A stretch of DNA of 64,000 nt from Thermoproteota archaeon (GCA_027491395.1 JAOZFI010000017.1:1-64000); one strand, 5' to 3'; shown: positions 5,059 through 9,659, numbered from the stretch's first letter. A program made the numbers and translations. The notes: generated by a model from the sequence alone, not told the origin.

Positions 5059-5931
5059 TTAGATCTCCTTCCTCATCCACTTGTACCTGCTTACTGGCTC
5101 GAAGCCAGCGGCCTCGAACGCTGCCCTATACCTGCACCAAGTCTGCGTAACTACCTTGGGCACGCCCATCTCATTGGCGAGGGTAACCGCCATCTCAGCA
5201 GAATCAAATATCTGACCAAGACTGGCCCTCTTCGGTCCCCATATCAGGGCGTAAAGGTGATCATCGTCCCTAGTAGGCTGGAACATCGCGAGGATGAGTT
5301 GCCACAGCCCCACCCTGACCTTCACGACTCTCGGCGAGGGAAGACCCACACTCTCCCTGTCCCACAGTAGCTCCCAAAGGAGGGATGAGGGCCTTGTCTG
5401 TCCAGCGATCATCTGGGCGGCAGCGGGGAATTCCTCCCTAGTGACATCCTCTAACTTGGGCTGCTCGGGTGCAGGCCTCGCCGGCGCCTCCATGAGCACC
5501 TGAGAATCGATCTCCCTGAATCCCAAGTTTTCGAAGAAGGGAAGGGCCTCGTTGGTCGGTATTGTGTCCAAGTGACGCATTCCCATTCCCCTAGCTAGAT
5601 CCATACACCTCTCAACGAGCTTCCTCCCTACGCCAGTCCTCCTCGCCTCCTCCTTGACCCAGACCATCTGCAGGTATGCGTGCTCGCCTACGGGGGTGAG
5701 GAACCTCTCCGGTACGACCTCAGCTTCACCGATTACCTTTCCATCAGACAGAGCGACCACTGCCTTGCCACCGGACGAGTAGAGGGCCTCCAAGTACCAC
5801 CCAAATACTTGGGGGTCTCCCCAGTAGCCGCACTCCTTGATCCGGAGATCGAAGGTCATATCCTTCCAGTTGGGGCAGTGAATCGAGACAACTTCATCCA
5901 ACAAATCATGCCTGAACTCAACTATCTCCAA
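5059..5931 (-). CDS. GNAT family N-acetyltransferase, tandem domains
   Basis: VWVKEEARRTGVGRKLVERCMDLARGMG acetyl-CoA binding motif; second degenerate domain. Confidence 0.8.
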   Translation of the reverse strand: MEIVEFRHDLLDEVVSIHCPNWKDMTFDLRIKECGYWGDPQVFGWYLEALYSSGGKAVVALSDGKVIGEAEVVPERFLTPVGEHAYLQMVWVKEEARRTGVGRKLVERCMDLARGMGMRHLDTIPTNEALPFFENLGFREIDSQVLMEAPARPAPEQPKLEDVTREEFPAAAQMIAGQTRPSSLLWELLWDRESVGLPSPRVVKVRVGLWQLILAMFQPTRDDDHLYALIWGPKRASLGQIFDSAEMAVTLANEMGVPKVVTQTWCRYRAAFEAAGFEPVSRYKWMRKEI

Positions 5932-6695
5932 GAGGGATCCTCCTCCACCAGCCGGGCGAGCTCTCTGAAGATTTCTCCCGCAGGCCCTCTCAACCTGATG
6001 TTCGCCAAGCTACTTAAATTAGTTTCCTCCGGATTCACTTCCACCAGTATCTTCCCTCGCCTCGCCGCGTTTATGGGTAACAGGGCTGCAGGCATGACCA
6101 CACCACTAGTTCCCACAACGAGGACGACCTCCGCCTCAGAGAACAAACTCTCTGCCCTCTCGAACTGGTCCATCGGAATGGGCTCCTCGAACCACACCAC
6201 ATCAGGCCTGAGAAGCCCACCACACTCTCTACACCTCGGTAAATCATCCTCTGGTATGTTCCCGAAACCTAGATTGAACCGCTTACCGCATGCAATGCAC
6301 CTAACCCTCCATATCGAACCGTGGAGCTCTACGACTAGTCTAGAGCCAGCTCTCTGGTGGAGCCCGTCGACGTTCTGGGTCACCACGCCCATGAGTATGC
6401 CCTTCCTCTCCCAGTCAGCCATTACCTTGTGGGCCCAAGTTGGCTCGGCCCTCGCGATTACGGACATTCTCCACTTATACCACTCCCAGACTCTCTTGGG
6501 GTTGGACTCGAACGCTCGGGGCGTGGCCAACTCCTCAGGCCTGTACCTGTTCCAGAGCCCATCCTTCCCCCTGAAGGTCGGGATACCTGCCTCAGCTGAG
6601 GTCCCAGCTCCTGTGAACGCCAGCACCTTTCCTGTATGCTCCTTGATCAAGCGGGCCGCTGAGGACAGGTCCTCGGAAGGGACGATCTCACTCAC
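5922..6695 (-). CDS. cobB: Sir2 family NAD-dependent protein deacylase
   Basis: GAGTSAEAGIPTFRG, TQNVDGLHQRAG, two CxxC zinc pairs, GTSGVVMPA. Confidence 0.93.
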   Translation of the reverse strand: MSEIVPSEDLSSAARLIKEHTGKVLAFTGAGTSAEAGIPTFRGKDGLWNRYRPEELATPRAFESNPKRVWEWYKWRMSVIARAEPTWAHKVMADWERKGILMGVVTQNVDGLHQRAGSRLVVELHGSIWRVRCIACGKRFNLGFGNIPEDDLPRCRECGGLLRPDVVWFEEPIPMDQFERAESLFSEAEVVLVVGTSGVVMPAALLPINAARRGKILVEVNPEETNLSSLANIRLRGPAGEIFRELARLVEEDPSWR

Positions 6696-7998
6696 CTAAC
6701 CTCACCTCCGGCGGAGAGCTGGGATACGGTCTCACCTCGGCCTCGAGGGGACACCCTCCCCTGCAGACTTGGAGCAGAGGGCAGGAGAAGCACGCTTCCC
6801 CCACGAAACGGAGTTCCCTGATCTTCAGGCACTCATCGTGATACCAGATCTTCTCCCAAGAATCCCTCAGGATGTGACCTAGAACCTTGTAATGACTCTG
6901 GCAAGGTATCACGGATCCATCGGGCTCTACCGCTAGGGTTATGCTGCACGCCGAGCAGAACTTCGGTCCCAGACCCTCGCTCATCGGGTCTAGCTCACAG
7001 TAACGGGTCACCCCGAACCACCTGAAGTCCAGATCTAGCTCCGTGGTGAGCTCCTTAGCCTCAGCCAGCACATATCTTATCTCATCAAAGGAGGGCTCCA
7101 GATCTCTCAGGTCCCTGCCCCTTCCGCTGTATATCAGCCTGTTCAGAGAGAATCCATCTACACCCAGATCTGCGGCGAACCGTATCAATGATTCCACTGT
7201 GCTCATGTTCCTCCTGAGGAGGGTCGCATTGACGCTCACGTAGATATCGAACTTGAGCAGGTTCTTGAGCCCCTCGACCGTCTCCTTCCAGCTTCCCCTC
7301 ACTTGGGTTATGGAATCGTGGACCTCTGGATCGCTGGACTCCAAGGTCACCTGAGCGAAATCCAATCCGGCCTCGATCAACCTCTCAACCAGCTCTCGGG
7401 TTAGAAGTCTCCCATTCGTCACTATTCCCGAGACCATCCCGAGCCTCTGGGCCTCGGCCACCAGCTCCGGAAGATCCCTCCTGAGCGTGGGCTCCCCACC
7501 GGTGAAAGTGACTTGAGGGACTCCCAGCTCATGGAACCTCCTTAACACGGCCTTCCACTCATTAGTGCTCAATTCCTTCCGCTCGTCGGGACTGGAGGAG
7601 TAGCAATGGATGCAGGCGTTATTACACCTGTACGTGAGGGCCAAGTCGACCCTGAAGGGGGCACCGAGGGTTGATGGGTCAGGAAAGGCCGGTTTAAACC
7701 CTAGATCGGTTACGGGGTCCTCATATCCCTCGATGAATCTCCTGAGCTTACTGACTACGTCCTCATAGTGCCTCCTCACCTCATCCTTTCTCATGCCCCT
7801 GTAAATCCTCTTCAACTCCCGATAAGCCTCATCCCATCCCTTACCTGAGAGGAAAGCCTTGGCGAATACTGCTGCTGTGTAGTTGAGGTAAGCGACCCTC
7901 TGAGCATCCACCACGAGGGCACCCATGGCTAGGGGATCTATACGGAGCTGGATCCTCCTACCATTCAATTTGAATGTCAGGAATTCCCTCTCGATCAA
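6688..7998 (-). CDS. Radical SAM/SPASM peptide-modifying-type enzyme with PqqD/RRE-like N-terminal region
   Basis: CNNACIHC (CxxxCxxC), TGGEPTLR, SPASM-type C-terminus CSAC...CQSHYK...CFSCPLLQVCRGGCP. Likely TTG start at 7998 overlapping the upstream stop (TTGA), preceded by GGAGGTGGGG. Confidence 0.85.
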   Translation of the reverse strand: MIEREFLTFKLNGRRIQLRIDPLAMGALVVDAQRVAYLNYTAAVFAKAFLSGKGWDEAYRELKRIYRGMRKDEVRRHYEDVVSKLRRFIEGYEDPVTDLGFKPAFPDPSTLGAPFRVDLALTYRCNNACIHCYSSSPDERKELSTNEWKAVLRRFHELGVPQVTFTGGEPTLRRDLPELVAEAQRLGMVSGIVTNGRLLTRELVERLIEAGLDFAQVTLESSDPEVHDSITQVRGSWKETVEGLKNLLKFDIYVSVNATLLRRNMSTVESLIRFAADLGVDGFSLNRLIYSGRGRDLRDLEPSFDEIRYVLAEAKELTTELDLDFRWFGVTRYCELDPMSEGLGPKFCSACSITLAVEPDGSVIPCQSHYKVLGHILRDSWEKIWYHDECLKIRELRFVGEACFSCPLLQVCRGGCPLEAEVRPYPSSPPEVRLGE

Positions 7999-9659
7999 CC
8001 AACCCCACCTCCAGCACAGGCACAAGCGCAACTCACACATGCGCAAGCACATGCGCAGCTGACACAGGCGCAGCTGACTGATGCCGTTCTCCTAGCTCGA
8101 GGTCTGGAGGGGACTATGACCTCAGCGACTCTGTTGGCGAAGTCCTCTATGTTTCTGACAATATTAGAGGAGACCTCCTCGACCGATCTGGCGATGATAT
8201 CGGCGGCTTTCTCTATGTCCGGGATGACTGGGACATCTACCTTGCCACTAGGCGTCCCAGACGTATCAGGAGCTCTGGGAATCCTCGGAGTGGGGGGAAT
8301 CGAGGTCCATCTACCCCTAGGCCACCATATCCACACATCGTCCAGCGGATAGGGATAGGAGGTAAAGACTACCTTCCCCTTAGGACTCTTCAATGCCTTT
8401 CTCAAACTTCTCTCGAAATCAGGATCTGTCAACAGCCATGCAAGATTACTCTTGACGAGATCGAGCTTCTCCTCCAAGGGAGCATCCTCGATCATCTCCC
8501 ATATTGATCTCACCTTGCTGTCGTAGAAAGCGAGGGTCTCCCTCCTCGAGTATCCAGATAGCTCTCTCTCCACCCTCCTGTGTATGAGCTTGATTACCTT
8601 AACTAGGCAATCTTGGTCTAGAGATCCGTCCTCCATCACACAGTCCAAGAACCTCTTCTCATAGATCCTCAGGTCCCTCCTCGATCCCTCTAACCTCCTA
8701 AGTTTAAGTGGATCTAGGCTATCCACCGCCAAGAACCCCTTCTCCACCAAGCTGGCTATGAGAACTGCTAAAATTCGCCCGTAACTGAACTTGGCTCCCT
8801 CCAACTTGCGGAGGTAGGCCACTTCCGTTGGACTCATGTTCTTGTTCGGTCCCAAACTCTCCGCGAAGATCTCAGGGGCTTGATAGGGGAGCTTCTCTAT
8901 CCATGACTTGAATAACTTGACTATGGCCACGATGGAGATTATTATCGCTCCCAGAAACACGATCCCTATAATGAAGCTGAGGTAGTCCGGAATTCCGCCG
9001 CCCGCAGGTACCACCTTATCGACGTAGTCCCTTGGAAACGACACCCCTATCTCGAACTTGTAGTTGGGGGGGAGGTCCCTCCTCTCCCAGTAGAGGTATA
9101 TCCTGCCGTCATCCAGCGTCTGCAAGTTGTCGTAATCGGGCTGGTTTCTCACCTCCTCCTTGGAAACCCCAGGAGGTAGTATCACGAATACTTGGAGCAG
9201 CTTTACGGGAGCATTGAACCAGGAGGGTGTGAACATGAGGCCCGCATTGCCGGGGTTAGTCTCGTCCTCATATATGAAGTCCCTAAGCTCGACCTCCACC
9301 ACGTAAGTCCTGCTCTCCCCCGGGTCTATAGGCTCGCTGGGTCTCATCTTCACCGCGTAATATGAGTCCTCCCTTACCTCTTGGGCATCGATCTCAACGG
9401 TTTTTCCATTGGGAAAGATTTCCTTAGTCTCTAGCACGCTGAAAGATGGTGAGGGCATCCCTACTGATACATAGCGGGCTACCGTCCCCGACTTCACCCT
9501 CAGAGTGAGGTTGTACCTCAAGTACACCGTTCCAGAACGCTGTATATCAAGAACGACCTTTTCCCTTTCTATTTCATACACTATCTGACCGCTCGTATTT
9601 ATTAGAGGAATTATGAGCGCGGAGATAACGAGGAATAGTAGAATAAGCCTGAACCTCAT
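7995..9659 (-). CDS. Membrane protein, DUF2207-like, with 9-Cys C-terminal tail (candidate modification substrate)
   Basis: Signal peptide, extracellular beta-rich region, TM YLSFIIGIVFLGAIIISIVAIVKLF, MSPTEVAYLRKLEGAKFSYGRILAVLIASLVEKGFL, tail SVSCACVSCACACACVSCACACAGGGVG. Confidence 0.85.
   Translation of the reverse strand: MRFRLILLFLVISALIIPLINTSGQIVYEIEREKVVLDIQRSGTVYLRYNLTLRVKSGTVARYVSVGMPSPSFSVLETKEIFPNGKTVEIDAQEVREDSYYAVKMRPSEPIDPGESRTYVVEVELRDFIYEDETNPGNAGLMFTPSWFNAPVKLLQVFVILPPGVSKEEVRNQPDYDNLQTLDDGRIYLYWERRDLPPNYKFEIGVSFPRDYVDKVVPAGGGIPDYLSFIIGIVFLGAIIISIVAIVKLFKSWIEKLPYQAPEIFAESLGPNKNMSPTEVAYLRKLEGAKFSYGRILAVLIASLVEKGFLAVDSLDPLKLRRLEGSRRDLRIYEKRFLDCVMEDGSLDQDCLVKVIKLIHRRVERELSGYSRRETLAFYDSKVRSIWEMIEDAPLEEKLDLVKSNLAWLLTDPDFERSLRKALKSPKGKVVFTSYPYPLDDVWIWWPRGRWTSIPPTPRIPRAPDTSGTPSGKVDVPVIPDIEKAADIIARSVEEVSSNIVRNIEDFANRVAEVIVPSRPRARRTASVSCACVSCACACACVSCACACAGGGVG

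Follow-up and report, generated by a model that had tools for sequence, protein, structure and literature searches.

A radical SAM enzyme and its cysteine-tailed membrane protein partner: a probable maturation pair in archaea and bacteria

A 64,000-nucleotide stretch of a Thermoproteota archaeon genome (GCA_027491395.1, JAOZFI010000017.1:1-64000; hereafter the window) encodes a membrane protein that ends in a cysteine-rich tail, together with an overlapping gene for an enzyme composed of an RRE (recognition element of ribosomally synthesised and post-translationally modified peptides, RiPPs), a radical SAM (S-adenosylmethionine) domain and a SPASM-type region. The two very likely form a real, widespread and functionally coupled pair, which is unnamed in Pfam and NCBIfam. 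Since the pair is kept together across many archaea and bacteria, it probably represents a widespread, as yet uncatalogued mode of completing a membrane protein by chemical modification. We propose a protein-maturation pair in which the enzyme modifies the tail of the membrane protein, most likely by introducing thioethers, and assign this reading a probability of roughly 0.6. That the tail is chemically altered by the enzyme in one way or another appears highly probable, and thioether formation, suggested by analogy with the enzyme family, is the form of that chemistry we favour. About evenly balanced, in our judgement, is the broader proposal of a cross-domain, housekeeping-like (not antibiotic) system, in which a poly-cross-linked Cys/Ala module would be built in place on an integral membrane protein and different enzyme clades would read two or more tail codes (CACACAGGG and CHSAC repeats).

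The gene pair and its cysteine tail

The two genes and the elements at their junction are:

7995..9659, minus strand: gene of the Cys-tailed membrane protein, 554 amino acids, the presumed substrate of the enzyme (open reading frame; orthologues in 25 of 29 genomes of the phylum; AlphaFold model with a predicted local distance difference test score, pLDDT, of 81.9)
7998..8072, minus strand: Cys/Ala tail CACVSCACACACVSCACACAGGGVG, residues 530-554 (read from the sequence; disordered in the AlphaFold model)
6688..7998, minus strand: gene of the RRE/radical SAM/SPASM enzyme, 436 amino acids, with a TTG start overlapping the upstream TGA (open reading frame, domain matches, AlphaFold model)
8003..8012, minus strand: ribosome-binding-like GGAGGTGGGG for the enzyme gene, within the codons of the tail glycines (read from the sequence)

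The 554-residue reading frame (9659-7995) has the C-terminus SVSCACVSCACACACVSCACACAGGGVG and a TGA stop. Nine cysteines are found in the last 26 residues and only two in the other 528, a tail count with a binomial probability of about 2e-14 at the Cys rate of the body. The enzyme start codon, TTG at 7998-7996, shares its TG with the stop codon of the tail gene. An alternative in-frame ATG at 8052 would lengthen the enzyme; the similarity between orthologues begins at about the TTG, which is weak support for that start as the query itself had been started there. An initial annotation of the window had placed both genes, the overlap and the ribosome-binding-like sequence at these positions, and the reading of the frames bears this out.

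The same annotation had proposed that the tail is maintained at the protein level. Indeed, over the 18 terminal codons of 22 orthologues the amino acids are 97% identical and the codons 40%, which indicates that selection acts on the protein. Outside the tail, the identity of the membrane protein drops to 34% within the phylum of the window. Over all loci, Cys is the commonest residue of the tails (40%), followed by Ala (33%) and then by Ser, Gly, His and Val.

Co-occurrence of tail and enzyme

When the GTDB genomes were scanned for DNA that encodes CACACAGGG, without regard to the enzyme, at least 117 stretches were obtained. At least 111 tails carry the motif in frame near a C-terminus, and at least one match (L087) looks like chance. 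Among the matches listed, the tail hosts include Chloroflexi, Lachnospiraceae and other Clostridia, Methanomassiliicoccales, Asgard archaea, Bathyarchaeota, Aminicenantes, Zixibacteria, Planctomycetes and others. According to an enzyme-family profile, the enzyme family occurs within 1.5 kb of 89 of the 111 listed tails, in 88 cases on the same strand; 19 of the other 22 tails lie near the end of a locus or contig, and one of the last three has the enzyme 1.6 kb away. The enzyme gene mostly lies downstream of the tail gene in the archaea and the Chloroflexi and upstream of it in the Clostridia, and this reversal indicates that the adjacency survived rearrangement. As these loci were picked by the motif, the invariance of their tails holds by construction, and two surveys blind to the tail, one in the Chloroflexi and one in the Bathyarchaeia, were therefore made.

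Within the archaeal phylum of the window (29 genomes surveyed) the tail protein is present in 25 genomes and the enzyme in the same 25; neither gene is found in the remaining four, one of which is 98% complete (Fisher P 4e-5). Two genomes (G001 and G002) retain both genes though these are no longer neighbours, and genus g5 has a diverged enzyme together with a different tail, ACHSACVHDACHSAC. In a class of the Chloroflexi (149 genomes), searched with two profiles, one of the membrane protein minus its tail (the body, A1) and one of the enzyme (A4), the body was found in 39 genomes, all 39 of which have the enzyme. The enzyme profile matches 41 genomes and neither gene is present in 108; one of the two extra enzyme matches (G062) is a different radical SAM enzyme, and the other (G046) is weighed below. 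All C-termini at the 30 Chloroflexi loci that were fetched are Cys-rich, being either CACA-type and ending in GGGR or of the (ACHSACVHD)-type. In the Bathyarchaeia (120 genomes, searches blind to the tail) the body occurs in 34 genomes and the enzyme in 32 (E 1e-68 or better), every one of which also has the body; in the two genomes lacking an enzyme match the contigs end in or near the gene. The tail is present at 29 of 30 fetched loci, the thirtieth being cut by a contig end. These tails vary at their Ala, Ser, Val and Gly positions, and one (L229) lacks the first Cys. Finally, with the enzyme as query in 145 genomes of Clostridia, all six strong matches adjoin a Cys tail (two CACACA, four CHSAC). 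Weak matches without a tail (E 1e-48 to 1e-63), which align mostly or only in the core, were set aside as other radical SAM enzymes.

The Fisher P values for the co-occurrence of tail and enzyme reach 3e-35 and 4e-27; like that for the phylum, they ignore the relatedness of the genomes. The initial annotation had named in advance, as evidence that would count against its claim, homologues that keep the enzyme and lack the tail, or the reverse. Among about 100 genomes one real exception was found (G046), next to contig-truncated or frameshifted cases, and the near-exceptionless co-occurrence in three surveyed groups supports the proposed functional coupling.

The two proteins and their neighbours

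The enzyme contains the following parts:

7729..7998, minus strand: RRE (PqqD-like) domain, residues 1-90 (beta-strands followed by three helices in the model; PqqD Pfam matches in relatives)
7603..7626, minus strand: CX3CX2C of the radical SAM cluster, C125, C129 and C132 (invariant in alignments A2 and A4)
6751..6957, minus strand: SPASM-type auxiliary cluster region, C348, C366 and then CX2CX5CX3C (Pfam SPASM PF13186, 2.3e-7; alignment)

The enzyme matches Radical_SAM (PF04055) at 1.1e-31, and both Radical_SAM and SPASM are matched in all 39 relatives. PqqD is matched in 22 of the 39, at best with 7e-7; the sequence of the window enzyme alone gave no PqqD match, and its RRE segment alone no useful match among PDB sequences. 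With CX12GX4C and CX2CX5CX3C the SPASM region holds six of the seven Cys positions and has no seventh Cys. The AlphaFold model (pLDDT 90.7) comprises an N-terminal RRE, a radical SAM barrel and a SPASM-like region, in line with the architecture initially annotated. By sequence and by fold the best solved relatives are SkfB, PqqE and SuiB, with CteB and anSME lower, and the fold alignments to SkfB and SuiB are long. The epimerase EpeE and BlsE also appear in the Foldseek list.

For the membrane protein, an AlphaFold model built from a 43-sequence alignment suggests the following anatomy:

9597..9656, minus strand: N-terminal signal/transmembrane helix, residues 2-21 (model helix and hydrophobic sequence)
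9033..9581, minus strand: predicted extracytoplasmic all-beta domain, residues 27-209 (AlphaFold model)
8895..8987, minus strand: predicted central transmembrane helix, residues 225-255 (AlphaFold model)
8391..8831, minus strand: cytoplasmic helical domain, residues 277-423 (alignment A1 and model; conserved from archaea to Chloroflexi)
8103..8216, minus strand: candidate 'leader' segment for recognition, made up of two helices and an invariant Pro, residues 482-519 (conserved after a variable linker; role inferred)

The beta domain has Foldseek matches to ribophorin I/Ost1 and to the N-domain of M1 aminopeptidases (E 3.5e-11 to 1e-7), with TM-scores of only about 0.26 by query length. It is the cytoplasmic helical domain that also matches the CHSAC-tailed homologues. 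In the model this domain is followed by a disordered linker, two helices (482-515) and the disordered tail. A PDB sequence search with the profile of the tail protein gave no match. From the modelled topology, in which the central transmembrane helix precedes the cytoplasmic domain, the tail of this two-transmembrane protein is predicted to lie on the cytoplasmic side, as had been annotated, and so in the same compartment as the enzyme. The conserved segment that immediately precedes the tail includes residue P517, which is the same in all 43 sequences, and this segment is the best candidate for the docking site of the RRE.

Besides the CACACA tail, a second and longer Cys tail was observed, consisting of CHSAC/CVHDAC repeats with 10-13 Cys and with His, on DUF2207-type proteins encoded beside the same enzyme family (L191-L200, L205-L208, L025). 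In a quick tree with long branches, the enzymes next to CHSAC tails form one clade (support 100), and four switches of tail type are seen over 116 labelled enzymes. Tail type thus tracks enzyme clade, as expected if the enzyme reads its tail. In the Clostridia a conserved AGC(S/T)xKDFY extension generally follows GGGR, so that the tail is not strictly terminal there; in L055, the one member read from end to end, the tail protein includes a zinc ribbon.

Several other genes recur around the pair. A small zinc-ribbon membrane protein, mostly with the C-terminus EEPKW, is encoded directly upstream of the tail gene at 33 loci from many phyla (e.g. L058:314-721 and L073:2304-2747), and a class I methyltransferase downstream at 30 loci; both accompany the pair in the Chloroflexi, the Bathyarchaeia and several other groups. 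The zinc-ribbon protein was considered as a core component and rejected for the phylum of the window, where no convincing match to it was found; the core therefore consists of two genes. Some loci, mainly in the Chloroflexi, add a radical-SAM-like protein that lacks CX3CX2C. Such second proteins, which keep PqqD-like or SPASM parts, are encoded at L054:4111-5316, L113:6219-7466 and L100:3677-5047, and are possibly pseudo-enzyme partners for substrate handling. Behind the enzyme gene of the window, genes for a Sir2-type deacylase and a GNAT acetyltransferase (5059-6695, minus strand) overlap end to end. The four-gene order of tail protein, enzyme, Sir2 and GNAT is found in nearly all genomes of the genus of the window and not outside it. 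Pfam identifies the neighbours in the window as Sir2, GNAT and a cupin-type phosphoglucose isomerase. The window contains no adjacent MNIO (DUF692) gene, and no MNIO-like gene is among the recurrent neighbours identified elsewhere.

Tail chemistry and relation to known systems

We envisage that the membrane protein is synthesised with its tail in the cytoplasm, where the RRE of the enzyme would dock on the conserved segment that leads into the tail. The radical SAM centre would then abstract hydrogens from tail residues, and the Cys sulphurs would most likely become linked to neighbours such as Ala, giving sactionine-like thioethers. The product would be a compact cross-linked or metal-ready domain that is still attached to the membrane protein, where it perhaps serves as a cross-linked or metal-binding module.

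Several observations weigh against this proposal. G046 (L201) has the enzyme and the methyltransferase and no detectable tail protein, and is the one clear orphan enzyme; in G343 the tail breaks off after RCVCA, which may reflect a frameshift. According to the alignment, the Clostridial enzymes lack the CX2CX5C part of the SPASM region. Radical SAM/SPASM enzymes also perform epimerisation, C-C linkage and decarboxylation, and the chemistry suggested here is drawn from analogy. A different partner could, moreover, be the substrate of the enzyme, the tail then serving as a metal carrier.

The alternative that survives best, though we consider it rather unlikely, is that the enzyme modifies the tail by Ala epimerisation, C-C cross-links or another oxidation, leaving the Cys free to bind metal. 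The chemical diversity of the SPASM-type enzymes, with EpeE and BlsE in the Foldseek list, is in line with this, and metal binding would fit the alternation of Cys and Ala as well as the His residues that adjoin Cys in the CHSAC tails; the closest tails in the literature, those of the MNIO/TIGR04222 proteins, have been discussed together with the copper-chelating bufferins (PMC12452194). On the other hand, among the matches with Cys-rich peptide substrates the closest in sequence and fold, SkfB and CteB, are thioether-forming enzymes, and the predominance of Cys in all tails likewise favours thioether formation. It is improbable that the tail remains unmodified, as a metal- or cluster-binding or redox-sensing element, and that the enzyme has its substrate elsewhere in the same membrane complex. 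Many systems do include the zinc-ribbon protein, the pseudo-radical-SAM protein and the methyltransferase, but the tail protein and the enzyme are the sole constant members, no convincing match to the zinc-ribbon gene being present in the phylum of the window, and the tail type follows the enzyme clade. A classical RiPP, with the tail cut off and released as a modified peptide, is very unlikely: the RRE/radical SAM/SPASM logic and the C-terminal core are typical of RiPPs, but RiPP cores evolve fast, whereas this tail is almost invariant and sits on a conserved membrane protein of 500 residues, and in the clusters examined neither a protease nor an exporter is a recurrent neighbour of the pair, so that it is not an obvious secreted peptide. 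Chance neighbours or a functionless Cys-rich expansion are scarcely conceivable, for although low-complexity tails can arise by repeat slippage and weak 15-nucleotide repeats are present, the disparity between amino acid and codon identity rules out a chance or DNA-repeat origin of the tail, and the co-occurrence statistics, even if they disregard relatedness, argue the same way.

If tail maturation by the enzyme is correct, radical SAM peptide chemistry is not confined to small natural products and includes a conserved step that finishes a membrane protein, in hosts comprising Korarchaeota-like archaea, Bathyarchaeia, Asgard archaea, Methanomassiliicoccales, Chloroflexi and gut Clostridia. 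The exact signature can be searched for, and cultured hosts (Ornatilinea apprima P3M-1, Gemmiger formicilis ATCC 27749) are available for testing.

With respect to known families, the tail protein of the window has no Pfam match, no match to DUF2207 (PF09972) at E 0.1 and no match to TIGR04222 in NCBIfam, and none of the CACACA-tailed proteins tested reaches the cut-off of an NCBIfam equivalog or a Pfam family. The enzyme matched only superfamily models, or scored far below the NCBIfam equivalog cut-offs. Two CHSAC-tailed homologues (L192 and L195) score above the PF09972 cut-off, and the best CHSAC-tailed relative approaches TIGR04222 (39 bits, 7e-10, just under the 43-bit cut-off), which indicates that the scaffolds are related. 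Of the initial description as DUF2207-like, distant homology by way of these homologues therefore stands, but the window protein itself falls outside the family model. The DUF2207 proteins (PF09972/PF20990) resemble it in having an ecto-domain, a transmembrane segment, a cytoplasmic domain and a low-complexity C-terminus; no enzyme partner is described for ordinary members (PMC10457818).

SkfB, CteB and SuiB share the RRE, radical SAM and SPASM-like architecture and are among the best PDB matches, and the substrates of SkfB and CteB are short and Cys-containing. The sactipeptide and ranthipeptide maturases and SuiB act on a short precursor peptide from a local cluster, whereas the partner here is an integral membrane protein of 330-700 residues that is conserved in archaea and bacteria; in place of a short precursor with a cleaved leader, the candidate substrate in the window is a two-transmembrane protein of 554 residues. 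A precedent for substrates other than secreted peptides is QhpD, a radical SAM enzyme that introduces several thioethers inside the gamma subunit of quinohaemoprotein amine dehydrogenase. That system differs in its soluble small subunit, its enzyme family and its acceptor residues.

In the literature one paper proved relevant, on MNIO enzymes (Antoine et al. 2025, PMC12452194); an earlier mention in subscription papers, including a radical SAM survey, is possible. There, TIGR04222 membrane proteins with Cys-rich C-termini adjoin MNIO enzymes and are proposed to be modified in place; radical SAM partners and DUF2207 are not treated. Both systems combine a related scaffold, a Cys-rich low-complexity C-terminus and an adjacent peptide-modifying enzyme. 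The MNIO systems, however, employ iron enzymes, occur mostly in Actinomycetota and have Ser/Gly-rich tails that are predicted to be periplasmic, whereas the pair in the window has an RRE/radical SAM/SPASM enzyme and a tail predicted to be cytoplasmic. If our reading holds, the parallel would suggest that two unrelated enzyme families have been recruited for the tails of one membrane scaffold, and the pair would offer a first biochemical handle on the widespread, functionally uncharacterised DUF2207-type proteins.

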